DNA from: Branchiostoma floridae
Lineage: Eukaryota > Chordata > Leptocardii > Amphioxiformes > Branchiostomatidae
Assembly (NCBI RefSeq): GCF_000003815.2
Contig: NC_049987.1
Span: forward strand, 12,050,778-12,114,777
Length of the DNA stretch: 64,000 bases
Reading direction: 5' to 3'
Shown piece after piece: positions 10,930 to 59,884 of the stretch. The position numbers and the translations under genes are program-made. Under the pieces are notes generated by a model. The model ran no database searches. It saw nothing but the letters and a program-made list of their open reading frames with translations, and was not told where the DNA came from. How positions within the stretch are numbered: the stretch's first letter is position 1; every line of letters starts with the position of its first letter.

Positions 10930-13900
10930 TTATACATCCCACATGGCCACCTTTGTAATGGCTACATTTTCACACACTGTTTCACACACCTTATCCAGGC
11001 TGGGCCCTTGATTCTTCCTAAGCACTGCAGAAAGATCAGGGGCCTGTCCACTCTGTAGCTGGGCAGCCAAACCCTGGAACAAAACAGAATGGTTACTAAT
11101 ACTAGTAGGTATTTTTTTAGCAAAAATGCACAAAGTGAAGAAGGAACAACTTGAATCACATTTAAACCATCTGTCATCATTGTAATATCATCAAACTTTA
11201 CTTAGTTAGTCATATTAATCATATTTAGACCCTCATTGTTTCATATCAAGCCTATATACATGGTCGCAGTTGGTCCCAACTTCTAATTTGTAACATAAGC
11301 AGTTGTCCCTAACTAAGTAGGTTGTAGATTTCTGTTCATTGACCTTTTATTACATCAGTTATCTAAAACCCTTTTCAAGTTATTTCTAGTAATTTCGGTA
11401 GAAATAAATGTCTCTTACATCGTAGCTAACTAATTACTTTCACATTCCTAGTAATATCTGAGTCTGACTTGTAGATCTGACCTTTGACACCGTGGAGATG
11501 GAGTTGGGTGACATGCTCTGTGCCTGAGACAGCTGTGTCAGGAGCTGCTGGATGTGGTCAGCCGTCATGGGGAGGGCAGGGGTGGCCGGACAGGGCGGCT
11601 CCGAGGCACCTGATGACCGCTCCGAGTTCAGGTAAGGGTGGGCCAGCAGGTCCGCAGTGGACGGTCGGTTGTAGGGGTCCCGTATCAGACATTTCTGGGT
11701 GGGGGCAAATACAGAACATGGTCAGTACTAAAGAACTCAAGTCTCTAAGTTAAGAATACATTACGAACATTTACTAAGTTTTAACTAAATAATGTACGTA
11801 AATAACCTTGGTCATTCAGATTTGACAGCAAATTACAAAACTTGTAAAATGCCATGTTGGAGTTGTGGTCTGAAAGTGTGGTCTATCTTTTTCCATCAAA
11901 ATCTGTCAAAAATATCTACACATCATGTTCATCAATTCATGGTCCACAACAAAGTTGAAAATGATTGACTCAAGTCTGGTTTAAAGCAAATACAAGACAC
12001 CACTAAGAACTGCCAACTTCTAAGAACTGTCTGTCATACCTTCAGCATATCCAGGAGCAGTTTGTTCTTGATGGGAGGGAACTGGATCTCATAGTTTGGG
12101 TCCACGATGGCCTGGAGCTTGGCGAAGTGGTTGGGGATGTGCTGGAACGGAGTCTTACCATACACCATGTAGTACAGGATACAGCCCAGGGACCACACGT
12201 CACTACGGCAGTTGATCTGTACAAGAGGAAAGGTCATCATTTGTACAGCATTCCCGTTTTCTAACAGGAGAATATCTGAAGACACATGTACCAATAAGAC
12301 CATACAAAGATTCCAACCAAAATCGTTCCATAGCTACTATTGCTTGACAGTAGGCACGTTTTGTTCCACCCTTAGCTTAAGGCTTAGAACTGGATTTTTT
12401 TATTCATTTGCACTGAACTGGATTTTATCGGAATAACAACAAAATTCTGGTGGTGACCAAGGAGCTACAGATGCAGAAATGTTTGCGGTGGTTTTATGTC
12501 TGCAGTTTTTTTGATGGCCACTTCACTGCAGAGTTAAAACCACCGTGAACATTTTTCCATTATAGCGACTACAGTCTAATGGCTCTACCGCGAACTTAAA
12601 ACCACAGCAAACATGCAAAAGTAATTCCCAGGAAAACTTTGCATTTACAGTATTTTTTTTCTGCATGTTTCCATGATTTTCAAGTGTCAGAGTGAGGAAT
12701 ACTGAACTTGGTTCTTCATACACATACCTTGAACAACTTCTTACTGTTGCCGTCTCGGTACTGAGCAGGATTGTACTCCCTGATGGTCTCAGGGGACATG
12801 TAGTTCAGCGTGCCCACTTGCTGGTCCTTTATCACACTGGTTTTGTCACTCTGGATGGCATTGGCAATCCCAAAGTCTATCAACTTCAGGTCACCATCCA
12901 CAAACAGGAAGTTGGCGGGTTTCAGGTCACTGTGGACAATGCCTGCAAAAAGGAGGACAGAAAGGTAAGGCTGGAAAGATATCTCAGCAATACACAAACC
13001 AAATACATGTACAAATAGAGTTGTACTAGGACATTATCAACGTTCAACAATGTTTGTGCAGAACATAGAATATACCATCCCAAGTGTGTATCCTCTCCAT
13101 CATCACAGTATTCTATCTTTTTCAGTTTACATACGGTTGGAATTTGTATGATTGGTTCTGTGCCAAAGATTATAATTGTGCTGACTTGCAGGAGTTGCCA
13201 CAAATTCTACAGATGAATTCTGTTGTTTGACACAGTGCCTGATGAGTATCTATACTGTAACTTGCTGTGCCAACCTTACATAGTTATGATGTTCAGCAGG
13301 CTCATAAGATAAGGCTTGCAACAACTTGTACAAAGGATAAGAAAACATTAGTAATCCCCACCCTGTCTGTGAATGGTGTCCACAGCCTCCAGCATGTGTC
13401 TCCAGTAGAACCACAGCACGTCGTCAGCGATGCTGCCCTGCTGTTTCTTCTTGTTCCTGAGGAACGTGGCCAGGTCCACACTTCCCTTCTCCATCACCAG
13501 CACGATACGCTCCTCAGTCACTTCACTGCAAGTGGAGAAAACTGGTTTACTACTGACTCAAGTTTTTATGGAAAAAAAAATCTCAACATCTAAATTCTAA
13601 TTCTAAACCACTTTCAAAATTATTTGGTTTTGCTCTTTCTCCTGTTTTTGTGCACCTTTCTTTCTCAAACATTTTCATGATTTGGTTTTCTTTCTTCCTC
13701 CCAGCAGAAAAGGTTTCTGGAAAAGGCTTGGCTGGCTACCTGGGCTAGTTGTCACGTCAGGCTACTCAAATACCCCCATTCATAGCCCCAATTCTTTTCA
13801 CTCGCATACACTACTTTTGGGCAAGCCTAATGGTATAGTACTGTATTTTATGTGAGTAGCTTGACTCAAGGCTAGAGGGAAAACATTCTGCATTTGTGCA

Positions 13901-39200: not shown

Positions 39201-42200
39201 ACTGCTTTCAATAGAAATATAATTCATTCAACTATCATCAGTATCACAGCAAAAGATTACAAGCAGGTCGACAGAGTTTGTCCGAAAATTTAGAGGGGTA
39301 AGTCCCTACAGTCTTAATTCCAGTGTCGGAAGTAAAGCTTTGACATTTTTGTATGATGCAGGTCATGATGTTTGTTTGTTTTCCTCTGACAGGGGGATCT
39401 ATAACCACACAGAGGCAGTGATGGTGGCACAGCTGGTAATAGCCCTGAAGGAGAACCCTGCCATAGACACACGCAACATTGGAGTCATCACACCCTACCA
39501 GAAACAGAAATGGCTCATAGAGACACAGCTCATCAGGAGGTGTGTGGAGCACATGTGTAGAACTGTGTACATAGATTTTTTGTCTATTGCAAAGAACATA
39601 CAGATATATACTTATATAAGTAGCCTTCTACAAGTTAGCCAAATGGTGTGATAGGGAGAGGATGATTTCTTCTTCATTTTTTGTGTGGAAATTTTAGGGC
39701 TGTCTCCAGGACCCGTTCTTCCATGCCAGGATACAAATTTGCTTGTTGGGGTGGAAAATAATTCGCTCCAACCGTCCAAAAGCCCAAACTTCATGACACA
39801 AAGTTGATAAAATGTATTTTCCTAGGTTTAATATGACAGATTCATTCATAGCAAATTAACAAGATGAGCTCCCAAACAATGAGTGGACAGAAAAAAATTT
39901 AAAGCTGGAGACAGCCCTGGGAATATAAGTATTTTAGATAAGTTGTTGACTGTGTTTGAGCTAAGTTTAAGCTTTTATTTTTTCATTTGAGGCATGTAAC
40001 TACCTTTGAGGCCTTTTGAGTCATCATTTATGTCTCCCTTACTTCACACAGTGGTAACAATCAGGTTGAGGTCGGCACTGTTGATGGATTTCAAGGTCGT
40101 GAGAAGGACATTGTCATCCTGTCGTGTGTACGGGCTTGCAGTAGCTCGGGAAGTATCGGTTTCCTGTGTCATCGGCAGCGGATGAACGTGGCGCTAACCC
40201 GTGCCAAGTTCTGTCTCTACGTCGTCTGTCATGAAGCCTCACTCAGGGTAGGTCTTTCCACTTTTCTTTAGCATCATTTATCATATTTCCTTTGGCACAT
40301 AAAGATTCGCTTGCTTCCATATTGCTGGTATTAGGGGAATTGTTTGATATGTCAAGTGTTTCTTGCTTACATTTTTGACAGGAATCTGTCAGGAAATTGC
40401 AGTAATGTCTGACAGTAAACCTGCATACATGTAAACTATATACATGTACATGAAGACAAAACCTTTCCAACTTTTATATCAGTTTTGCAGTTTGTAACAA
40501 GAGGTGACCTTCAAGAAGCTTGATACTTAGCATTTACTGTTAAGGCATAATACAGCATTTAATGTGAAGAACACAGACTTTATTATGATCTATGGCTGTC
40601 CCTTTCTTGACAGACTAACCTTGACTGGCACTCATGCATGGAAGATGCTCGGAGACGGGAGGTTCTTGTAGATGTGAAAGGCCTCGGCTCTGAGGAGGAC
40701 TTCCACCAGTTGGGTCGAGCAGCCCGGCTCAACGTGAAGAAACTCTGTCCCAGGCCTGGCCCATCTGCTATCACTCATGAGGAAAACAAGCAGGTGCAGG
40801 AAAGAAGGGGAGAAAATGACACCAAGCTGAAGAAAGGCAAGACTGCTAAGGAAAAACCTGGCTCTCAACACACTGCAACTCTGAAGAAGAGTATGCAAAG
40901 TAAAGGAGGTAAAGAACAAAGACATGAAAGTGACATTCCAGCACATAGTAAGAAAGGCAAACACTATGAGAAGAAATCATCCAGAGATTGTCCAACATCT
41001 TCAAAAGGCAAGACAACAAATGCAGCAAAGGGCTCCTCACAGGAAGGTAGGAAGTATGCAGCAGAGGCTGGCAGGAAAGTGTCAGCAAAGGCTAGAAAAG
41101 GAGAAGCAACCAAGAGCTCTTCTGTCAACAGTTCATCAAAAGAGTCTAGTAAAGGACATGAGAAAGCCAGCAAGAGTACTGGCCACAGGAAGAATGTTGC
41201 TCACAACAAACACAAGACAAGTGAACGAACCTCCACAGTTACAACCAAACATGGAACAACAGGAAGACACGATGGGAAGAAGAGACTGCCAGCACAGGGG
41301 AAGAACAAATTGAGCGGATTCAAAATACCAAAGGTGGTGGTCACTTCTACACAAGAGTCGGTTCAAAGCAAGTCAGTGAAAGAAACTCCTACAGCCACAT
41401 CTTCAGGGAAAGAAACTCCTGCTACATCTTCTTTGGTGAAAGAAACTACCACTGCAGTGTCTACAATAAAAGAAACTACTGCCACAACATCAACAGCAAG
41501 TACATCAAGGGGGCAAGTCTTTCCTCTTGATTCTATTCTTGGTCAAATGTCTTCTGCCACCAAAGAGGATGATGTTGTTGCCAATGGGTTTGGTTCAGGG
41601 GCAGGAATCTCCAATGATGATGTATCGCTACGTAATGGCTCCAAGGAGGATTCACATAGTGTTCACACAGCTGACAAGGCTAATTCAGGTGCTGTAGAGA
41701 ACAGACAGGCACTGAAGAGGAGAGGGGACAAAACTGATGATAATCTCAGGCACTTCAAAATCCCCAGAAGGAACAGCCAGGATGTAGTCCATGTTCCTGC
41801 AAATACTTCTGATGGGAGCAGACAGTCAAGTAGCCAAGCAAAGATTGGCACAAACAATAATAAGCCCTGCCCTGTGGATACTAGGGGCCATACAGGGCAA
41901 AGCTCCAAAGTCATGTCAGACTCACAACAAGGTGGTCACAGGGCTAGGGTTGGATCGGTGGGAGGGCAGGATACGGACCAAAGGGAAGTGAACCATCTGC
42001 GAAGAGGGCAGCACGCCAAGCACACAATACAGCAGGAAAACAGCTCTAACATTCGATCTACGATTGTGTCCAGAACAGATGCATCTGGAAGGATTGTCAG
42101 GACCAGGTGGGAAAAGTTAAAGTCAGTTTTGAAATCACCCACCAGACGGACATCTAAGAGACTGAAAGTAACCTTTGACTCCTCTATTGTGAATACCCCA

Positions 42201-42914
42201 TCTAACACCCGAGAGTTGACAAACTACTGTGGAAGTTATGAGGCACGGATGGCAGAAATGAAATCTCTTCCAAACACAACGAGATCTGATGTGGGCTCAT
42301 TTGTGCCAGATGAAGCAGACAATTTCAGGAACACACAAGCTTTCCAAAGAAGGGGAGCTCTGTCAGTTACTGTCAACACACAGTCAGGGGGCAGAGCTGC
42401 ACAATTATCACACTCAGAGTCAGAACTACCAGAACTCTCTTCTACTCAGTCTCCACTGAAAGACCAGGACAGATCATTCAACCATAGCTTGAGAGGCAAT
42501 CCAAGCCAGGAGGCTGCAGTTGGCAATGTAAGGACAGGGGGCAGCTCTGCTAGGTCTGGCAACCAGACAAAACTGACATCCAGCCATCAGATAGCCTCAG
42601 ATCCTAGTCCAAGATCAGGGGCTCAGGGTAACAGGATCAGGATCAGCAACTTTGTACCCGCAGCGACAACTCGCAGGGATTCAAATGGCACTGTTACATT
42701 CCAGAACCACATGGCATCGGCCAGTCACCAAAGGGAGAGAGGGGAGAACAATAGTAGCTCAGGTACGAGGTCGAACTATCCCAGTATTATCACAGGCCAA
42801 ATTGCGAGGATCCCACACAGCAGTAGCACATCAAACCCTGCCGTGTCAGGCAACTCCACACGGGACCCACGTCTTGCCCGAGTTCATCGAGGCGCCATGA
42901 TCCAACCCCCCTGA
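21255..42914 (+). CDS. SETX: Senataxin, Sen1-type RNA/DNA helicase
   Basis: 28 coding exons: 21255-21443, 21595-21751, 22273-22382, 22897-23125, 23584-23700, 23986-24166, 24328-26360, 27203-27415, 27972-28169, 28285-29679, 29998-30308, 30490-30658, 30843-30961, 32930-33038, 33785-33925, 34143-34234, 34670-34813, 35299-35454, 36015-36183, 37208-37315, 37498-37694, 37926-38105, 38274-38381, 38562-38731, 38942-39037, 39393-39539, 40052-40247 and 40614-42914. They total 9735 nt, about 3244 aa. The N-terminal domain matches senataxin (CLWCTCPERM start, YCWDCVLEYHHGREE, LLEVLKFPYLLLHEK, FWPALQCLVVLFDRLGS). A long disordered middle follows. The SF1B helicase has GPPGTGKSHTIVGL (Walker A, near residue 2003), VLLCAPSNAGIDEL, IIDEAGQCNE (Walker B), LVGDPEQLP, LNTQYRMHPAICGFPS, GVITPYQKQK, GTVDGFQGREKDIV and MNVALTRAK. 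The last exon encodes a Lys/Ser-rich tail of about 770 aa. Senataxin resolves R-loops and assists transcription termination in the nucleus. The ATG directly follows a splice acceptor, so a 5' UTR exon lies upstream. Near 42916 a donor and near 43122 an acceptor suggest a 3' UTR intron. Confidence 0.93.
21950..22195. repeat. Possible SINE remnant in a SETX intron
   Basis: On the minus strand a B-box-like GAGTTTGATCC sits within GGTCTCGAGTTTGATCCTGG (complement near 22117-22136). No clear A box was found; weak evidence. Confidence 0.3.
23376..23507. repeat. Fold-back MITE-like repeat in a SETX intron
   Basis: The left arm from GTCTCTTAGACACCTTTTCC pairs with a right arm ending GGAAGGTGTCTGAGAGAC. 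Arms are about 45-50 bp with mismatches, around a short loop. It lies between the fourth and fifth coding exons. Confidence 0.7.
27917..27942. repeat. AAGGAGGTT-type micro-palindrome in a SETX intron
   Basis: TCAAGAAGGT pairs with CACCTCCTTGA with one mismatch, and ATTACAT occurs on both sides (27911-27917, 27942-27948). Same style as the palindrome at 18790-18810. Confidence 0.4.
31023..32799. mobile_element. Non-autonomous hAT-like element in a SETX intron
   Basis: Left terminus CAGCGTTCCCGCCAGG and right terminus CCTGGCGGGAACGCTG are perfect 16-bp inverted repeats. They are flanked by an identical 8-bp direct repeat CTTACACC (31015-31022 and 32800-32807), the target-duplication length of hAT transposons. 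ATGCGTCCAAA also recurs in inverted form near each end. The interior of about 1.8 kb has no long ORF; it contains a GC-rich CGCCGGAGGCGCGAGACG stretch near 31081. The SETX intron is enlarged by this insertion but both splice sites are intact. Confidence 0.88.
33110..33532 (+). repeat. 26-bp minisatellite in a SETX intron
   Basis: About fifteen copies of CACCAGGGACAGGGAAACAC plus AGTCAG, mostly identical, with single-base variants (CAGCGCC, GGGGCAGGG, CAGAACC, CAGTAAG). The second-copy region near 33185-33205 carries a diverged unit. The array begins about 70 bp after the exon ending at 33038. Confidence 0.95.
35638..35846. repeat. Dispersed MITE-like repeat family B, copy 2
   Basis: In the intron after the Walker A exon of SETX. 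It holds GCAGTTCGCGGGGATTTACT, GACTGCAGTCTCATACTATA, GCAGTGGTTTTAAGTTTGCG and GAACATTTCTGCATTCACAG. This is the inverted order of the copies at 12462-12656 and 46724-46912. Confidence 0.75.
36247..36286. repeat. Perfect 18-bp-arm palindrome
   Basis: TGTTATCTAATATGTACA, loop TAAT, then its exact complement. It lies directly upstream of the LINE fragment at 36290, so it may mark that insertion edge. Confidence 0.85.
36290..36705 (+). mobile_element. Non-LTR retrotransposon fragment (C-terminal end of the RT ORF)
   Basis: An open stretch of about 128 codons (36293-36679) encodes RKHLRAITGLQWPKSMVSN, LSEKAEQARWSMFGHILRMP and QDTPAQKAL. This is the conserved post-thumb region (R-W-x-GH-x-LRM) at the C-terminus of LINE reverse transcriptase ORFs. 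Endonuclease and RT catalytic domains are absent, so the copy is 5'-truncated. It lies in a SETX intron in the same orientation and is not a SETX exon. Confidence 0.75.
38781..38867 (+). mobile_element. Fragment of the Harbinger-like MITE found at 54109-55099
   Basis: GCGGGAGCCCCGGTAAC, GATACCCTACGTTCCAATGG and GGCCAAATTTGGCCATCGTG match the right end of the 54109-55099 element (GCGGGAGCCCCGGTAAC, CGTTCGAATGGAAAC, CCATCGTG). Only this end is present, inside a SETX intron. Confidence 0.7.
39695..39919. mobile_element. hAT-like MITE in a SETX intron
   Basis: TAGGGCTGTCTCCAG at the left and CTGGAGACAGCCCTG at the right are near-perfect 15-bp inverted ends. The element is 225 bp with no ORF. The flanking 8-mers (GGAAATTT and GGAATATA) are only partly alike, so the target duplication is eroded or uncertain. 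Confidence 0.65.
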
Positions 42915-43707: not shown

Positions 43708-43807
43708 NNNNNNNNNNNNNNNNNNNNNNNNNNNNNNNNNNNNNNNNNNNNNNNNNNNNNNNNNNNNNNNNNNNNNNNNNNNNNNNNNNNNNNNNNNNNN
43801 NNNNNNN
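43708..43807. other. Assembly gap (100 N)
   Basis: Exactly 100 unknown bases, the conventional placeholder for a gap of unknown size. ORFs crossing it are artefacts. Confidence 0.99.
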
Positions 43808-44357: not shown

Positions 44358-44590
44358 TCAGCACTGGAACACCAGTGCTGAAGTGGTCGTCAGCACTGGA
44401 AGTCCAGTGCTGAGCCGGCGTCAGCACTGGAAATCCAGTGCTGAGGCAGCTTCAGCACTCGAAGCCCTCCTGTCAGCACTGGAAACCGAGTGCTGAGACT
44501 ACAATCAGCACTAGATTTCCAGTGCTGAGGACATTTCATCTCTGGAAATCCAGTGCTGACAAATATTCTGCACTGGAAACCGAGTATAAA
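44358..44590. repeat. Hairpin array, left
   Basis: Seven to eight copies of a 24-bp palindrome TCAGCACTGGAA-NN-CCAGTGCTGA, at 44358-44381, 44390-44413, 44421-44444, 44473-44496, 44505-44528 and two degenerate copies to about 44587. Spacers are 7-12 bp and unrelated. The arms pair over 9-11 bp even where bases differ from consensus (for example CACTAGATTTCCAGTG). Confidence 0.9.
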
Positions 44591-44670
44591 ATGTATAAAG
44601 TTGGTGAAAAGAACTTACATTCTGTAACAAAATATAAATGGACAACTGTATTATACAATGTTTTTTAAAT

Positions 44671-45100
44671 GATGCTTCTTTGCCGCACAAGCAAAATGTG
44701 TCGTCCACCTGTAACTACCTATTCTTTGTAAAAAAAAAAGCGATCTCTTTACCACACAGATAGACCAACTGTTTGTTGTCTAACTCTGACTACCTATTGT
44801 TTTTTTAATTGATGCTACTTTGCCGCACAAGCAGAATGTGTCGTCCACCTGTAACTACCTATTCTTTGTAAAAAAAAGCGATCTCTTTACCACACAGATA
44901 GACCAACTGTTAGTTGTCTAACTCTGACTACCTATTGTTTTTTAAATGATGTTACTTTGCCGCACAAGCAGAATGTGTCGTCCACCTGTAACTACCTATT
45001 CTTTGTAAAAAAACAAACAAGCGATCTCTTTACCACACAGATAGACCAACTGTTAGTTGTCTACCTCTGACTAAAAAGACACTACTTTGCCACAAGTATA
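44671..45100. repeat. Tandem repeat, unit about 137-140 bp
   Basis: Units start at 44671, 44811 and 44948, with a partial fourth near 45085. Each runs GATGCTACTTTGCCGCACAA, GCAGAATGTGTCGTCCACCT, GCGATCTCTTTACCACACAG and AGTTGTCTAACTCTGACTAC. Copies differ mainly in the length of an A run. Confidence 0.92.
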
Positions 45101-45227
45101 GAATATGTGATTTGTTGATTTAAAATTTCCGTATCAATTGACCAAAGTGTCTACTCTAGTCTAAATCTAGTAAAAGCTAGTGCCACGCAAGATCTGCCTG
45201 GAGATTAAATAACACGCACAGATATAC

Positions 45228-45276
45228 CTAAGTCCAAGAAGGTTAAAACACTGTGTTTTAACCTCCTTGCTAAGTC
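45228..45276. repeat. Micro-palindrome flanked by CTAAGTC direct repeats
   Basis: AAGGTTAAAACAC and TGTTTTAACCTCCTT pair around a short loop (45235-45269), with CTAAGTC at 45228-45234 and 45270-45276. Same AGGAGGTT style as 18790-18810. Confidence 0.6.
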
Positions 45277-45335
45277 TAAAGGAAATAACTCAGACAGCCG
45301 TACGGACGCATGCTACTAGTACACGAATATTACGT

Positions 45336-45796
45336 TCAGCACTGGAACGTTCCAGTGCTTTATAAACGTCAGCACTGGAAGCCCAGAGCTGAAGTTTTTA
45401 CAGCACTGGTCTTCCAGTGCTGAAAAGTTCCCGAGCACTGGTAAATCCAGTGCTGAACCCGTTACTTTTGTATATCAGCACTCGGTTCCAGTGCTGACGG
45501 CGGTTTCAGCACTGGGTAACCAGTGCTGAATGACCTCTGCCGTGAGTTCAGCACAGTGGTACCCGAGTGCTGACGGCAGTTCAGCACTGGAAAACCAGTG
45601 CTCGGAGAAGTTCAGCACTGGAAATCCAGTGCTCGCATTGGGTTCAGCACTGGAATTCCAGTGCTGAGGGAGCTTCAGCACTGGAACAAGGCCGTTCAGC
45701 ACTGGAAAACCAGTGCTGACGTTTCTTCAGCACTGGAAAACCAGTGCTGAGGCCGATTCGACCCATTGATTCAGCACTGGAACACCAGTGCTGAAC
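45336..45796. repeat. Hairpin array, right
   Basis: About fourteen copies of the TCAGCACTGGAA/CCAGTGCTGA palindrome with spacers of 6-20 bp, including full copies ending at about 45670, 45718, 45750 and 45795 and one half copy near 45675. Loop dinucleotides vary (AC, AA, AT, TT, GG). Confidence 0.9.
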
Positions 45797-47765: not shown

Positions 47766-50700
47766 ATGGCAACAATCACACATGCTCATGCTAAACATCC
47801 ACCAAGACAGCAGGAGAATGTTGTACCTGGACACAGCATGAACGGGGCCAGTGATGATCACCTACCTTCATACCTTCCAGAAGATGAACTGGACGCCTTC
47901 CAGGAAACCATTCCTTCCAACAGCCAAGAACATTTACTTCATCTAGCTAATCCAGAACATTTCACTTCATCAGAAGATTACGGAGATCTGTATAGAAGCA
48001 GTAGCAACAGCAGCAACAAAAAAGTGCTTCAACCTGGGTCCTTGAGTAGCAGATATCCCAGTTCCCTTCCAGAGTCAGATGAAGACACAGAAAGACTGGA
48101 TATCAATCACCAATCACACCTATCTGGAAATGCCAAACTCCATGCCAGAAGTGGAAGACATCCCTCAGTTAAAACTGAAAACAGGAAACCATTGAATGGA
48201 GTAAAGAAATCTTACATGAAACAGGTAACCCAAGGAGATGACAGAAATAGTAATTTATACTCTGGACTAGGCAGCTTGTCTTCATGTCTTTCTAACAGCA
48301 TTGAAGATAAAGTCCATGTTTCAGTCCAGAAAACAGCAACAGCTCCTGTCCTTGAAGAAGTACCACTGAGCTCTCATAGGGGTTCAAGTATTCCTGAATC
48401 TGTAGGAAGGATAAGCCTTACCCAGCAAACACTGTCAGGTGATTCAGTCGACTCTTGTCAGTCAGCCAAGACTGCTTTTGCACAAGAACTTGGAGAAGCA
48501 TCAAGGGAGAAAAGTCTGACAAAGGCAAACTCTAAAAACTCTCACAAAGATCAGCTTGCTTTGTCTGTCAAGGAATGTCCAGAAGGAGTGACTGAGGCCT
48601 TGAGGAACAGTCCAATACGTTCAGAAGGTGCTGCAAAAAGTTCTCCATGGCAGCAAGATCAGATGCCAAATAATACTGGACAGCAAACCCCCATGCAGAC
48701 CCACACAAACACTCCCCCCACAGACATCCCTGTGACATCCTTGCCCACAGATAGCAGCAGCAGTGCAGAGATTTCTGAAAGTTTGTCAGGAAGCCTAGGG
48801 CAAAGCCTTGGCCCCACAAGTGGTTGGTCTGTCCACTTACCTGGAAATGGCATGCGCATGGAAGTCCCGAAATCAAAGTCCTCTTATAGTACAGGTGTGA
48901 AAGAAGAGGAAAAATCTCAACAAGATAGAAGCATGTTACGATCCTTATTTTCAAGTCAAGTCACAAGTCATCTCAGTGAGGAAGAACTGGTCAATGAGGC
49001 TAAGATGACAGCACTAATTCGAATTGTTCAGGAAAAGCCTATATACCTTGACTCACATCCAGATTCACTGTTGAGCCAGCTTTCAGATTTAATCTTTCAA
49101 AATCAAGAAAATGAACCAGCAAGCGGAAATAGTTTTGCGCCACTGAGCTTAAGGTCTATGGTCAGCCAAAGTCTGGGCACAATTGAAGACATGCTTTCAA
49201 TTACCAGTTCAATAGCAGGTTAGTATTGTGGGAACATTGCTTTCTGGTTGTTTTACATCTCTTAAGGATTTTTTGAGATTTGAATTGTTGTGGTTCAGGT
49301 TATGAGATGTCTTTGATCTAATAGGAGATTTAAAATCATTTGAATGAACCTTATATCAAAACCATAAAATGACTTCAATGGAGAAATTGTGTACTACAAT
49401 TTGTCTTTCAAAATATTCCCTCCTTATTGTATTTACTTATTCTCTTTCCATATGATAAAGAAAATCAGCCAGGAGCCATGGCCCCATCAAGAAATCAGTC
49501 CCAGGGACAAAATCCATCCGGCCAATCAAGACATTATATGACCAATGATCTGCTATCAACCATCTTCATCAGCCAACCAGGGGCAGCAGCTGCCCGAACC
49601 AATGAACAGAATGAATTGTTGACAACCCTCCAATCTGCAACTGCTAGGCTGTCATTGGTGCAGGAGAAAATTCAATCAGATAAAGTTGGAGAGGTGATGA
49701 AGAATGGACAAGAATCGCAGCAGGTAGTTGAATTCCTATTAGTATACATGTATGACAATCAGGGTACTGGATTGAAATGTCAAACATTATTACAATAAAG
49801 GATGACAATGATTATCTTTCAACCTTCTCAAAAGTCATACACAATGTTAGAGACATTGTTACATACTATCCATCCATTGGGCAGGTTAGGTACATTGGAA
49901 TGTTACTGAAAAGAAAATGAACTATTCAAACGGGAATTTTGATCCAGAGTTTGTTGTAGTTTACTTCTTGTTATACAGTTCTTTAGGCTTTTCTAACTCT
50001 ACTTGGATCACTTTGAATGATTAATTGAAAAGAAAAGAAAAGAAAAGAAAGGAATTCAAGTGATTCTGACTTTGTGTATCTACTGTATTCGTCTTCTTGT
50101 CCACAGCATCGCCATGCCAGGATAATGGACATTTTGGAGCGGCTGTGCCCTGAGTCCTTGAAGCAGGTGTTGGTCAGTGCAGCGTATTGCTATGGAAAGT
50201 GTAAAGAGCCAAACTGCATGCTGGTAAGATACCATTTGTTAAATTAAATCTAAAACATAACATTTAAATCAATGTTGAAGTCGCCTTTTCAAATCTGCCT
50301 TTGACTTGATATCAGTGAACATTTTTCTTGCAGTCATTTTACAACAGAAAACGACTAAACATTTGTTTTATGCTTCAAGTTTTGTAGATTTTTAGAAACA
50401 AGGATAAATCTTATGATGAAGTCTAATTAACCCTCTGATTTTAAAAACTACATCCGAATCTCTAAGTTCTTGTAGCCCGACTAAAATCGTACTCCTAGTG
50501 GCTGGCCTTACAGTTGCCACGACCATAGTAGGAGGATTGGGCGAGGGGGTCATTAACCCCATCCAGCAAACAGGCTAATAGCTCTTGTTGTTGCAGCATT
50601 TTCAAATGATATAATCAGCCACAAACTCCATCAACCTAAAAGATACTGTATGAATCCTCCAGGCACATGAGGTGTTGTCATACCTGGTGGAGTGTGTGAA

Positions 50701-53656
50701 GGAGGGGACAGTACTGAGGTGCCGAGGCTGCTGTGCTGTCCTGTCTCATCTACTCCATCACCACGTTCCCAGGTGCACTGAGAGGAGGTGTCTTGTTCCT
50801 TACTGTGTCCATCTGCAAACAGGGTAAGCTTGCTGTACCCTTCTATCTTTTTGGTCTAAGAATGGTACAAAGCAAATTAAAAAAAATGAAACCAAAACAT
50901 CACACAATTTGGTTGATTGCCAACCTCTTTTATGCATTGAGAGAATGATTAACTTATTCCTCTATTGTACAACTTACATAAGTAAGAAAGGAAATCAAGT
51001 TCTCTAAACTAGATATTGCTGAAGGAAAAGGAAGTAAAATGCAATATTTTCCGCAGAACTCCATCATCAGTGCAAGAAGCTGTAAGGAGGATCAATGCAG
51101 AGATAGGCACAGTGGGCCTGTATCCTGAGATAGTGGTGCGGACATCAGATCCCAGCTTTCAAGGGGTAAGTTTTCCTTGACAAGAATGTATAGTCGTATC
51201 ATCAGGCTTTGCACGTAATGTCATCATGCGATGCTTTTTCCTTAAGAAAATGTACTTCTTTAAAGTAATCTTGGAGGTGAAATGCTTTCTATGGTACTCA
51301 AGTACTCAATGAACATATTAAAAGGTTTTGGACTTACCGGTACTTTCAATTTGTTGATCTAGCTGGCCATGGCCCACCCCTGGTGTTGAAAAGCTGGAAC
51401 CTGTGCTACCATTGGGGGCCTTTGGCAGAAACATTCTGGCTATTGCCAAGGACAAATATGTGACCATCAAACAGGTAGGATTTTAAAGATAACTTTCAGT
51501 AAGTATGCATTGTATCTCCTCTTGGCACATAATGGAGGATAAGAATGGGAATAATGCAGCTTCAAAGTATGTTTATCCTTACCTTCCATCCCTGAGACAT
51601 GATTTGTACCTTATTTTCCAGATGGACAGAGAATGTCTGGAGGTGTTGCGTAGGCTGGATGGCACCACACCCCACATCGTTCAGTTCTTCTGGGTGAAGT
51701 CTGCTGTAAACCGTCAGGAGGAGCTGCAAGTGTGTGCTGCTTTTGAGCAAGGTGAGGAGATCTCCAGTGCAGCCTGTTACACAACTAGAGTTTTAATCAT
51801 TAGCAAGATAACCTTTTGTGAGTACATGTGTATATGGTTGTAGAGAACAAGACAAAGCCTATTAATAACATAGAACAACAGAATGAGGATACCTTTGTAA
51901 AGATCAAGTCATGTATAATGTGAATGACATGCCAACATAACATTTAACTTTTCTCCTTTTGACTTCAGGTGGCAGTCTGCAGAGCCTGCTTACAGACCAT
52001 GGTGGGTTGAAGACTGAAAGGATATGGATGTACCTACAGCAGGTGTTGCAAGCTGTGATCTACCTGCACAACCTGGACATTGTGTACTTAGCTTGGACAG
52101 GTGTGTATGTTTTAAAATTTTATTGTCTGTGGCTCTAGTGGTTAGCACCACTCCCTGCTTGGTACAACTGTTTTTGGTTGCATTCATCCTTTAAGATGGA
52201 GATGTAAAGCCAGCCTTTCAGATGGGGATGTATTATAGTTGTTAAGTACAATGTCTTTTGTAATGAATTATAAGCCCATAGTCCTTTCAGATTCATACAA
52301 AAATATCATTTCAAATTGTATTGCACACAATTATCTATTTACTTAATATCACGGCATCCTTATTTTTCCTCAGCTGACAACATAGTCCTGGATAGCAGCC
52401 ATCAGATGGCCAAGCTGTCCAACCTCTCCTATGCAGTTCATCTGACTGAAGAGACAACTGAAGACGCCTGTGTACAGGCTGTCACTGGCCTTCCTCCTCA
52501 GATTTTGGCACCAGAGGTAATTTTTTTAATGTATGCTTTTCTCAACAAGGGCTGCTATCCTTGAGGAAGAGGATAATAGTGGTTGTCCTAATGAAAAGAA
52601 GACAAAATATCACACAAAAAAAGATGACATTAAGGAGAAAAATACCAGAAAACAGTGCAAAATCATAAGTATAATTTTGTAGTTCCAAATATGTGAAGTA
52701 TAGACTGAAAATGAATTAAGATTCTATATGCCAATCCCACTGACACTCGCAATATATAACACTGATACCCTATCATTGTCATTAATGGTGGTGTTTTTTC
52801 ATATGAATTTATGCCACATATTTGTTTATGGTTACAGGTGCATGCTGACCTGTCAGCTTATCATCAGTCAGACATATGGGGCCTTGGCTGCCTGCTATTC
52901 CAGCTGAGGGTGGGCAGGCTACCGTATCCTCACCTCAGTCATGACCACCCTGAGTCCATCAGACAGAAGGTTAATATTCAAACTTTTAGCAACAAGACAA
53001 TGAGTTCTAATGATAATTTTGTTGGTTCTCTTTGAATTTTTCAGTGCCAATTTCTATCACAAGATAAATTATATATGTAAGGCCAGTATTTTTGTGTACG
53101 TGTTACATCATCTTTATAACGTTTCATGTTCAGTACAAAAACTGCATCTGAGGATTTTTTTGTCTCTTACAGTTTTTGGCATAGAATTGGCAAGTGCTAC
53201 GTATTTGATTGCACTCATTTAAGATGTTCTCTTCATGTCCAGATTGGTGAGGACAGAGAACTACCCATGATTCCACAGTCTTGGCAGGGACAGGAGAGGG
53301 AAGTGTTGGAGGCCTGCTGGCAGGTGAGTCAGGCGGTTGTTGGACTCAGAGTCTGAGAGATATTGTAGAAAATTATACTAAACTGCAGGTGATAAAAATC
53401 ATAATATTATGCATTTTATTTTGAGGAGAATCTATGTAGTTAAATTTAGCCCATCCAACAGCAAAGTGTTCCTGTACCTTTTCCAATTATTAAAACAAAT
53501 CCCTGTCAGCCTGTACTAAATTTATATACCTCACATCTATTGAATTCATGAAGTTTGTACATGAGTTTTTTTACCTGATGTTTTTTTTTATAGGAGGAAG
53601 CAACATCAAGACCATCTGCCCAGCAGCTCCAAGCCCTTGTTAATAGATATTGCTAA
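47766..53656 (+). CDS. TAZ zinc finger plus MAP3K/NIK-like pseudokinase protein
   Basis: Twelve coding exons: 47766-49218, 49461-49723, 50107-50223, 50663-50823, 51057-51165, 51394-51474, 51622-51751, 51969-52100, 52374-52516, 52838-52969, 53243-53323 and 53594-53656 (TAA). They total 2865 nt, 954 aa. Residues 1-570 are Ser/Thr/Gln-rich, probably disordered, with one SUMO-type VKTE. Residues about 573-665 fit a TAZ zinc finger: CYGKCKEPNC, twelve residues to VEC, then LRCRGC, HHVPRC, TERRC and LVPYC, the Cys/His spacing of CBP/p300 TAZ2. The C-terminal 250 residues follow a protein-kinase fold resembling MAP3K14/NIK (LGAFGRN loop, VTIKQ, GGSLQSLL, VIYLHNLDIVY, ADNIVL, LAPE, SDIWGLGCLLFQL, SRPSAQQL). 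The catalytic HRD Asp is replaced (YLAWTADN) and DFG reads SNL, so it is probably a pseudokinase. The acceptor at 51393 is uncertain, because an upstream AG at 51362 would hit a stop in phase. Known TAZ domains bind transactivation segments; the role here is unknown. Confidence 0.8.
52122..52245 (+). repeat. tRNA-like SINE fragment in an intron
   Basis: GTGGCTCTAGTGGTTAGCAC resembles a tRNA 5' part with A box, followed about 40 bp later by a degenerate B box (GGTTGCATTCATCC). It lies in an intron of the TAZ-pseudokinase gene. Confidence 0.5.
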
Positions 53657-55742: not shown

Positions 55743-58700
55743 TTATGTTTTCTCCTCTTCATCAGCCTTTTCTGCTGTTTCTTTTTTCCGCCTCACCGCG
55801 TTTTCAAAGTACTGCATGTCCTTGAGGACGTCCTGCTCCACCTGTGTGGTGTCGTACTCGTACATCAGGTCAAACTCCATCCAGGGTTTCCTGTGCTTGT
55901 CCATCTTGTCCAGTCTCTTCTGGCTCAGGTGGTTCTCCCTCATGTGCTCCCTGTTGATCCCCTGCAGCTCCACTCTCTCCCAGCGCCAGTACCACGGCGG
56001 GGGCTTCAGGATCACCTTGGTCTGAAGGATCAATTGAAATGTGTTTAACCAGGAATGTTGGACACCTTGGCACCTGGCAAACCAGGACAACTGGATACCA
56101 TACCTAGAAGAGTTTCTAAACATTTCCCATCAAGAAGACACCTGACTATAACGTAACCCTAACCTCAACCCTAATCCTTGAACCTTAACCATTACTGGAG
56201 TTGTCCTTGGCATGGTGCTAAGTTGTCCTGCTTGACACCTTTTACCAGGCCTTCAGGTTTTGTAAAAAAATGTATACATCAATATCTAATAAATAAAACA
56301 TTAAAATACTTCACAAGGAAAAAGGCATAAACAACCTGATTGGTCAGGAACATTTGTATAATTACTTCATGATATCTTAATTTTATGTCTGAAGGCAAAG
56401 AATCATCCAATAAGACACGAAACTGCAGATACTGGGTCTTTGTTCAGTCAGATGGAGGAAGGACAGTTATACCAGAGATCTGTATGTAAATGAATCTCCT
56501 GGTGAAGAATGGTTATTGTACACAAAACAAACATTAACTTACATCGAGTATTGGCACAGGATCCTCAGGGTTGTGTTGTACTGGTTCTAAGTTGAAGTCT
56601 ATGGTGCTGTACTCAGGTAGGGCGTCCCTCAGGTACACCATGTGGGGGTCCACTGACTTCTGTAGCTTCAGGACCTGCACCTGGTGGATGGTGGGGTTGT
56701 ACAGCTCATAACAGATCTCTATACCTGTGGGCAAAACAATGTAAGGTTTTTTGTCAGATATTCTTGAACAACACTGCAGATAGATAGACAACAAAAGGGA
56801 AAATGTTCATCTTTTAAACCTACATAGTGATGAAACACAGGACAGGCAGTCTGTCATCAAGCCACCACATATGTGAGCAAATACCTCCAACCCTCCTGAC
56901 ATGGGGAACAGCAGACAATAAACTGAATAGTGATTGTGTGAGCGACCAAGACTTACACATGTATGGTTAAGGCGTGACAACTTTTGACAGCTGTTGGCCC
57001 TGCAATGTGTTAAAATGTATTGTGCCAAAGGGTAGCTACATGGGTTAGCCGATAGCAGTTTTGATACATGTATCAAGACTGCTGACTCAAAAGACTTACC
57101 CTGTCCATTAACAATATTCCTGAGAGTGAAGGTGGCCCCAAGCCCGTACCCTCCCCTCTTGATACAGATGCCCACAAACTGCTGGTATTTACCAGGTGCA
57201 TAGGGGTCAGCAGTTAACACTGACAGGATGCTACCTGAAAACAACAACAGCACAAAATCTTTATTCATTGTTGAATCTAGATGAAGTGATAAGGAGATGG
57301 AGGAAAAAAAATTCCTGACTGATATTATGTCATACCTGCGACGTGAAAACGTTCCATACGGGACGGGGTGTTCCAGACCGTGTGATAACTTTCCGTATCA
57401 CACAGGCTCGAAAGTTGTATCACACCCTAGTAAATCTAACTATTTCGAATGGGCCGAATACGGCAAGGTTGAAAATTTGAATACCGGATTCGGACCTTAG
57501 AATTGCTGTTGTTACAATCTTTTGTTCGAGGACACGACATTTTCTCAACTTCTGGTGCATTTCGCATTGAAATATGTCTTTTCTCAGGTGGGTATGACAT
57601 AAATAAAATACAACACGGTGTATTCCGCATCACCCTCAGTCCCAGCCCTCCAGTGGGTCGAATCACCCTCCGGCCTTCCCGCGGTTGGGCTGGTACCTCG
57701 GGTGATAGTGATACAGAATACACCGTGTTGTATTCTATATTTTTATCATCATCATCATACATACTCACCCACATAAAACTCAGGAATATCTATGACAGAT
57801 CGCCGGCGGAGCATGTCCATCCGCTCCATATGGTTCTTGGTGGGAAAATCTGCCTTCATTCCTCGGGGAATGATGAACTCAGGACTGATGAACCTACAAT
57901 TGCAGCAAATCGAATGTTATGATCATCTTTTTTTGAGTTTGATTAATACATGTATTATGAAACTTATGAAGCATCAGTGTCAAAGATATTTAAAAAAAGA
58001 ACTGCTACAATACCATAAGCTTTTATTTTACAAAGCTCATGTACTGTTTTGCAGATTATCAAAACTAGCAAGATTGTAAGCCACAAGGAACGCAAAGTCC
58101 ACCAGCTGAAACGCAAGTTAGGAAAGTGTGCAGTATGCACTTCATATGTTATATATTGTGCAAGAAATACAGTTGGGTGGGAAAAACCTTTGGGTCTATT
58201 CTCAAGCTGCTGATAGTTGTAACCGTTACAAGAGATAGTGCAATATGCAATTAGTGCAATATATGAGTTTTGCAATCTTCTTGTGCAATATGTTTCAAGA
58301 ATTTTTAAAACAGTCTGTACCTCAGTAGTCCGACGCACACGATTGTTCATTTTAATATGTTTTACCTTGCGCCCTCTGGACGTCGTAAGTCGAAAAAGGG
58401 TCGACCTAGGTATTTTAATCTTTCATCTTGTATTTGTATGTCTAATTCTAAGGCTCAATAAAGATGATTCTGACCCCCCTTTTCTGTTAATCTAACAACC
58501 AACCAACAAACAGAAATATGTCCAAGTTATATTTTTTTCACATGAGCTTGACATATGTCAAAACAGTACCCAAATCATGGGTCTGGTCTTACACACGTCA
58601 GTCTGGTCTTACAAATTTAGAGCTTGTGCCTAGTTCACATAACCGGTGTGTTATGTCTGTGGCTGTGCAGATCAAACAAAAAACAAACCTGTACCTTTGT

Positions 58701-59784: not shown

Positions 59785-59884
59785 NNNNNNNNNNNNNNNN
59801 NNNNNNNNNNNNNNNNNNNNNNNNNNNNNNNNNNNNNNNNNNNNNNNNNNNNNNNNNNNNNNNNNNNNNNNNNNNNNNNNNNNN
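59785..59884. other. Assembly gap (100 N)
   Basis: Exactly 100 unknown bases; ORFs crossing it on either strand are artefacts. Confidence 0.99.

Follow-up and report, generated by a model that had tools for sequence, protein, structure and literature searches.

Gene model and coding exons

We analyzed a 64,000-nucleotide stretch of Branchiostoma floridae DNA (contig NC_049987.1, positions 12,050,778 to 12,114,777, assembly GCF_000003815.2; hereafter the window), centering on LOC118422616, a gene that combines a TAZ2-like, cysteine-rich domain with a predicted pseudokinase. An earlier reading made from the DNA letters without database searches (the sequence-only reading) had described a TAZ zinc finger fused to a NIK-like pseudokinase; its observation was confirmed in part, and its interpretation gained partial support. 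Twelve plus-strand coding exons at 47766-53656 yield an open model of 954 amino acids (aa). Residues 1-702 of the model are matched without a difference by RefSeq protein P0003 (LOC118422616 isoform X1, B. floridae, 709 aa). This match supports the proposed junction 50823/51057; other isoforms beyond X1 may exist. A frame running across the exon junctions can be read as claimed, except that junction 51165/51394, the entry to the kinase half, was not confirmed. The features are as follows, with two alternative starts for exon 6.

47766..49218 (+): coding exon 1, aa 1-484, mostly low-complexity N-terminal region (exon model; identical to RefSeq P0003)
49065..49115 (+): SLLSQLSDLIFQNQENE, aa 434-450, candidate activation-domain-like helix, invariant in all three Branchiostoma proteins
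49461..49723 (+): coding exon 2, ending at aa 572 (exon model; tblastn with P0001, P0002 and P0003)
50107..50223 (+): coding exon 3, aa 573-611, TAZ2-like domain part 1 with C600, C604 and C609 (exon model; profile; tblastn)
50663..50823 (+): coding exon 4, starting at aa 612, TAZ2-like domain part 2 with C622, C631, C634 and an intact site 3 (H645-C649-C654-C659) (exon model; profile; tblastn)
51057..51165 (+): coding exon 5, encoding the linker that leads from the TAZ2-like domain into the kinase and ending at aa 701 (exon model; tblastn)
51363..51474 (+): exon 6 with the acceptor implied by RefSeq X1; in-frame TGA at 51387-51389 closes the 709-aa product and the kinase continues in a different frame (RefSeq X1 protein; acceptor score 4.3)
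51394..51474 (+): exon 6 with the acceptor of the sequence-only reading; opens the kinase fold and keeps the beta3-type Lys (51469-51471) (exon model; acceptor score -1.7)
51622..51751 (+): kinase exon, N-lobe (exon model; Pfam; tblastn)
51969..52100 (+): kinase exon, Tyr-Leu-Ala at 52085-52093 in place of His-Arg-Asp (exon model; alignment)
52374..52516 (+): kinase exon, Asn-Leu-Ser at 52421-52429 in place of Asp-Phe-Gly; its end keeps APE (exon model; alignment)
52838..52969 (+): kinase exon, C-lobe, DxWxxG kept (exon model; tblastn; alignment)
53243..53323 (+): kinase exon, C-lobe (exon model; tblastn)
53594..53656 (+): last coding exon with the stop codon (exon model)

A TAZ2-like domain joined to a pseudokinase

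To place the cysteine-rich region, a profile was built from the TAZ-like regions of three Branchiostoma proteins and searched against the PDB at E<=10. All 15 matches were p300 or CBP chains, the best eight with E values of 4.7e-6 to 6.8e-5, and the best match spanned profile columns 13-102. The five printed alignments cover the same single p300 stretch, called TAZ2 in entry 3t92; by inference and recall, the remaining p300/CBP chains are TAZ2 as well. As controls, the profile was permuted once while sparing the mostly-Cys/His columns and once in full, and neither permuted version had any PDB match at E<=10. Similarity to TAZ2 therefore goes beyond cysteine spacing, and a chance arrangement of Cys and His was rejected. 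Judged from these comparisons, the domain is a homolog of TAZ2 beyond composition and Cys/His spacing, in a derived rather than canonical form.

TAZ2 holds three zincs, each through one His and three Cys (HCCC) (PMC12022988). The spacing given in the sequence-only reading proved accurate (C609-x12-C622, C631-x2-C634, H645-x3-C649-x4-C654-x4-C659), as did its remark that the first two zinc sites are partly degenerate, with Tyr618 where TAZ2 has a His ligand. In the alignment to p300, site 3 is complete (H645, C649, C654, C659). Overall, 10 of the 12 canonical zinc positions are retained, and those ten are invariant in all three Branchiostoma sequences.

The kinase fold is unambiguous in the predicted protein. 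Pfam Pkinase matched the 954-aa model above its cut-off (E 2.4e-23), kinase families were the only ones to exceed their own cut-offs in the Pfam scan, and a scan of NCBIfam returned only distant bacterial kinase families far under cut-off. As noted in the sequence-only reading, the HRD aspartate and DFG are missing: the HRD position reads YLA and the DFG position NLS or NFS in all three Branchiostoma sequences. Substitutions affect the catalytic and DFG aspartates as well as the loop Arg and Lys in each of them; the beta3-type Lys and the catalytic-loop Asn are kept. By these residues the domain is a pseudokinase. Our preferred reading takes it to be most like MAP3K-group kinases, and NIK is one among several near-tied kinase resemblances.

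The same order of domains, TAZ-like and then kinase, was found in two congener proteins. P0001, a B. lanceolatum protein named MAP3K1 (670 aa), begins where the B. floridae model has residue 310; its identity to that model was 84% in the TAZ part and 81% in the kinase. P0002 (LOC144925711, 1009 aa), from a B. floridae x belcheri hybrid, showed 76% identity in the TAZ part, 79% in the kinase and 46% in the linker; with an identity of 72%, it is probably the belcheri-derived copy, and no copy of floridae descent was seen for the hybrid. A fusion with these identities in both proteins argues against the chance joining of two models.

Homologs were sought among 5.8 billion proteins with word-based, length-limited searches; distant relatives could be missed, because these searches need shared 5-residue words and were restricted by length. 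For the TAZ part, the listed matches were in Branchiostoma only, and with the TAZ part of P0002 as the query all three matches at E<=10 were from this genus. The search covering proteins of about 525-1670 aa gave three Branchiostoma proteins among ten matches, the other seven being other kinases (P0004-P0010, kinase families in Pfam); that covering about 212-674 aa gave one Branchiostoma protein among three, with two other kinases (P0004 and P0011, also kinase families in Pfam). No kinase-only B. floridae protein was listed within about 212-674 aa, a range that P0002 (1009 aa) and P0003 (709 aa) fall outside. In the open literature, which leaves most subscription papers outside, we found no paper combining a TAZ domain with a pseudokinase or protein kinase domain, nor one naming the locus. 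On this comparison of proteins, the pairing is a real domain combination, so far found in lancelets only.

Junction to the kinase half, rival explanations and neighboring features

The sequence-only reading had joined 51165 to 51394. Going by the RefSeq X1 protein, 51165 is joined to 51363 instead, and the sequence-only junction is probably wrong for this genome. The distance from FQ to VLPLG is 16 residues in both P0001 and P0002, which fits acceptor 51363. Read from that acceptor, the B. floridae sequence encodes L-A-M-A-H-P-W-C before a TGA at 51387-51389 closes the product at 709 aa. The kinase continues in another frame; when B. floridae DNA was compared with the proteins of its congeners, the stretch 51363-51389 was one base out of step with their protein frame. 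Acceptor 51394 bypasses the stop stretch and keeps the frame open. On a rough acceptor score built from the 10 other acceptors of the gene (leave-one-out range 0.3 to 12.3), 51394 scored -1.7 and 51363 scored 4.3; this score is weak evidence, because an AG at 51247 used by no model reached 7.5. The 954-aa fusion would require another acceptor or another allele, and the break is compatible with an allele, an error in the assembly, a truncation of recent date or the use of a different acceptor.

The remaining kinase exons are free of any further stop or frame break. Changes unique to B. floridae numbered 21 of 252 in the kinase part, compared to 15 unique to P0001 and 21 unique to P0002, and the share of B. 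floridae-only changes was alike in the kinase and in the N-terminal plus TAZ part (Fisher p 0.86). With no excess of B. floridae-only changes, the idea that its kinase half is decaying is unsupported.

Our preferred reading, to which we assign a probability of roughly 0.45, is of a gene, so far seen in Branchiostoma only, whose low-complexity N-terminus, derived TAZ2-type domain and pseudokinase would work together as a non-catalytic adaptor. Several results weigh against it. Pfam zf-TAZ (PF02135) aligned to residues 592-659 of the 954-aa model (profile positions 6-72 of 72) with 11.7 bits, and all three orthologous regions matched at E<=10; the curated cut-off of 25 bits was reached by no query, whether the whole model, the isolated domain (16.3 bits, E 0.014), P0001 (12.1) or P0003 (12.2), and full-length P0002 had no zf-TAZ row at E<=1. 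The Pfam check proposed with the sequence-only reading thus failed to give a match above threshold, and a Pfam TAZ match as sole support was rejected. In the PDB profile search, five further p300/CBP chains matched weakly (E 0.006-0.08) and two long ones had E values of 6.3 and 8.6. The top chains carry Ala where wild-type p300 presumably has a non-ligand Cys, which may raise their scores. Engineered constructs of this kind are mentioned in PMC3534135. At the zinc sites, Cys 600, 604 and 609 of site 1 are kept and its His is replaced by Ser or Gly; site 2 keeps Cys 622, 631 and 634, with its His replaced by Tyr618, or by Cys in B. lanceolatum. None of the three sequences has the three full HCCC sites of a canonical TAZ2, since sites 1 and 2 lack His in each. 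As to the four-helix bundle of a canonical TAZ2, AlphaFold2 (AF2), run with 3 and then 10 sequences, gave no confident TAZ fold, with block means of about 27-54 there; the first model had a predicted local distance difference test (pLDDT) score of 31.9, and the second was informative for the kinase part only. In a VIA-align fold comparison (best 50 of 1000 chains), the rows fall within residues 340-670 of the P0001 model, so the TAZ part was barely touched. Finally, the RefSeq B. floridae product X1 is without the kinase half.

The last of these points suits a gene that is now TAZ-only in B. floridae, with the break at 51363-51389 fixed, the 709-aa protein as its product and the kinase exons as untranslated remnants. 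Isoform X1 terminates at the break, and, the hybrid P0002 aside, none of the B. floridae proteins listed in either length range carries the kinase half. We nevertheless consider this unlikely: the kinase exons hold neither a further break nor an excess of B. floridae-only changes, and the data would also suit a loss of recent origin, an allele still segregating, an assembly error or use of acceptor 51394. That two adjacent genes, one TAZ-like and one a pseudokinase, were wrongly merged by annotation pipelines appears quite improbable. Pipelines can fuse neighbors, and the RefSeq B. floridae protein does end at the junction; however, the annotated P0001 and P0002, from two other Branchiostoma genomes, show the same fusion with a junction of 16 residues in both, and a kinase-only B. 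floridae protein was not listed within about 212-674 aa.

Two further alternatives concern what the domains do. The cysteine-rich region could derive from TAZ2 and no longer act as a zinc-dependent binder of transactivation domains (TADs), serving instead as a structural or dimerization element next to the pseudokinase. The loss of His from two of three sites in all three sequences favors this, as does the zinc requirement for p300 TAZ2 folding described in PMC3534135, but the complete third site and the invariance of the ten remaining canonical positions speak against it; we regard it as somewhat unlikely, and it is compatible with the other readings. It is very improbable that the kinase half is active through an atypical mechanism, for which the retained beta3-type Lys and catalytic-loop Asn would count, set against the four replaced catalytic residues in every sequence.

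Other features were observed in the window. At 44359-45793, ~2 kb upstream of coding exon 1, short inverted-repeat units of the form CAGCACTGG-N4-CCAGTGCTG are clustered, with 9 intact hairpins and 15 and 13 half-sites. Runs of exactly 100 N, resembling scaffold gaps, lie at 43708-43807 and 59785-59884. The 3' part of a gene at 40000-42911 (+), which by eye we take to be a senataxin-type helicase, encodes a 766-aa tail with no Pfam match at E<=0.01. A kinase C-lobe fragment at 12136-12207 (-), presumably TTK/Mps1-like, was matched by P0001, and 56537-56806 (-) had a weak Pfam match under cut-off to ribosomal protein L19 (PF01245), which we assume to be MRPL19.

Proposed function and related systems

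A hydrophobic groove by which TAZ2 domains hold amphipathic activation-domain helices is described in PMC3534135, and according to PMC10475075 the TAZ2 of p300 can also restrain the protein from within, a brake that transcription factors release. We propose that the protein may be a lancelet-specific, non-catalytic adaptor, a role that is plausible. Its TAZ2-like domain would grip amphipathic helices in the activation domains of partner transcription factors, and its pseudokinase lobe would give its partners, among them perhaps a MAP3K-type kinase, a surface for docking or switching. Alternatively, the domain might grip the protein's own SLLSQLSDLIFQNQENE segment as a cis lock, which is speculative. 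SLLSQLSDLIFQNQENE is the longest invariant run within the compared N-terminal part (residues 310-572), and both AF2 models of P0001 show the segment as a low-confidence helix (119-135). By eye and without a statistic, it looks like the predicted B-Myb TAD helix SLSEALDLIE quoted in PMC3534135. From the B. floridae sequence, the main product would be the 709-aa form with the TAZ part, and the kinase half would be made only via another acceptor or allele. In a bolder version that we consider decidedly unlikely, the TAZ2-bearing pseudokinase would compete with CBP/p300 for TADs or divert them, closed by its own helix and opened by a partner, while the frame-breaking B. floridae form would separate TAZ from the switch half.

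If true, this would be a kinase-shaped switch for TAD recognition, and the attachment of a TAZ2-derived module to a pseudokinase would give kinase-type scaffolds a new way of recognizing activation domains. Unusually extensive domain shuffling among innate immune genes of the lancelet lineage is described in PMC2575513, which does not mention TAZ, and the gene would be a further case of shuffling in this lineage. It also poses the question of whether a TAZ2 minus two zinc His ligands can still grip an activation domain, and the B. floridae frame break is a warning against inferring a fusion directly from a single genome.

In the pseudokinase scaffolds MLKL, STRAD and Tribbles, a kinase fold with an incomplete catalytic set serves for binding, and we know of no such scaffold that carries a TAZ-type domain. 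Relative to the MAP3K group (ASK1/MAP3K5, NIK/MAP3K14, MEKK2), the amphioxus kinase half differs in having neither the catalytic Asp nor DFG, with 22-27% identity to ASK1 and NIK among the matches listed; AKT, Eph, HCK, Aurora and ACK1, from other kinase groups, scored nearly equal to the MAP3K-group kinases. TAZ domains occur in CBP/p300 and in plant BTB-TAZ proteins. The latter share with the amphioxus protein a TAZ-type domain outside CBP/p300, but the amphioxus protein has no BTB row in Pfam up to E 1. It likewise differs from the CBP/p300 coactivators: up to E 1, the Pfam scan of the 954-aa model has no row for KIX, bromodomain, HAT or ZZ. Compared to CBP/p300 TAZ2 itself, the amphioxus domain has Ser/Gly for the site 1 His and a first Cys spacing of C-x3-C rather than C-x4-C, and Tyr or Cys for the site 2 His with a long spacing one residue longer, whereas the C-x2-C of site 2 is kept and the third site, H-x3-C-x4-C-x4-C, is identical in spacing.
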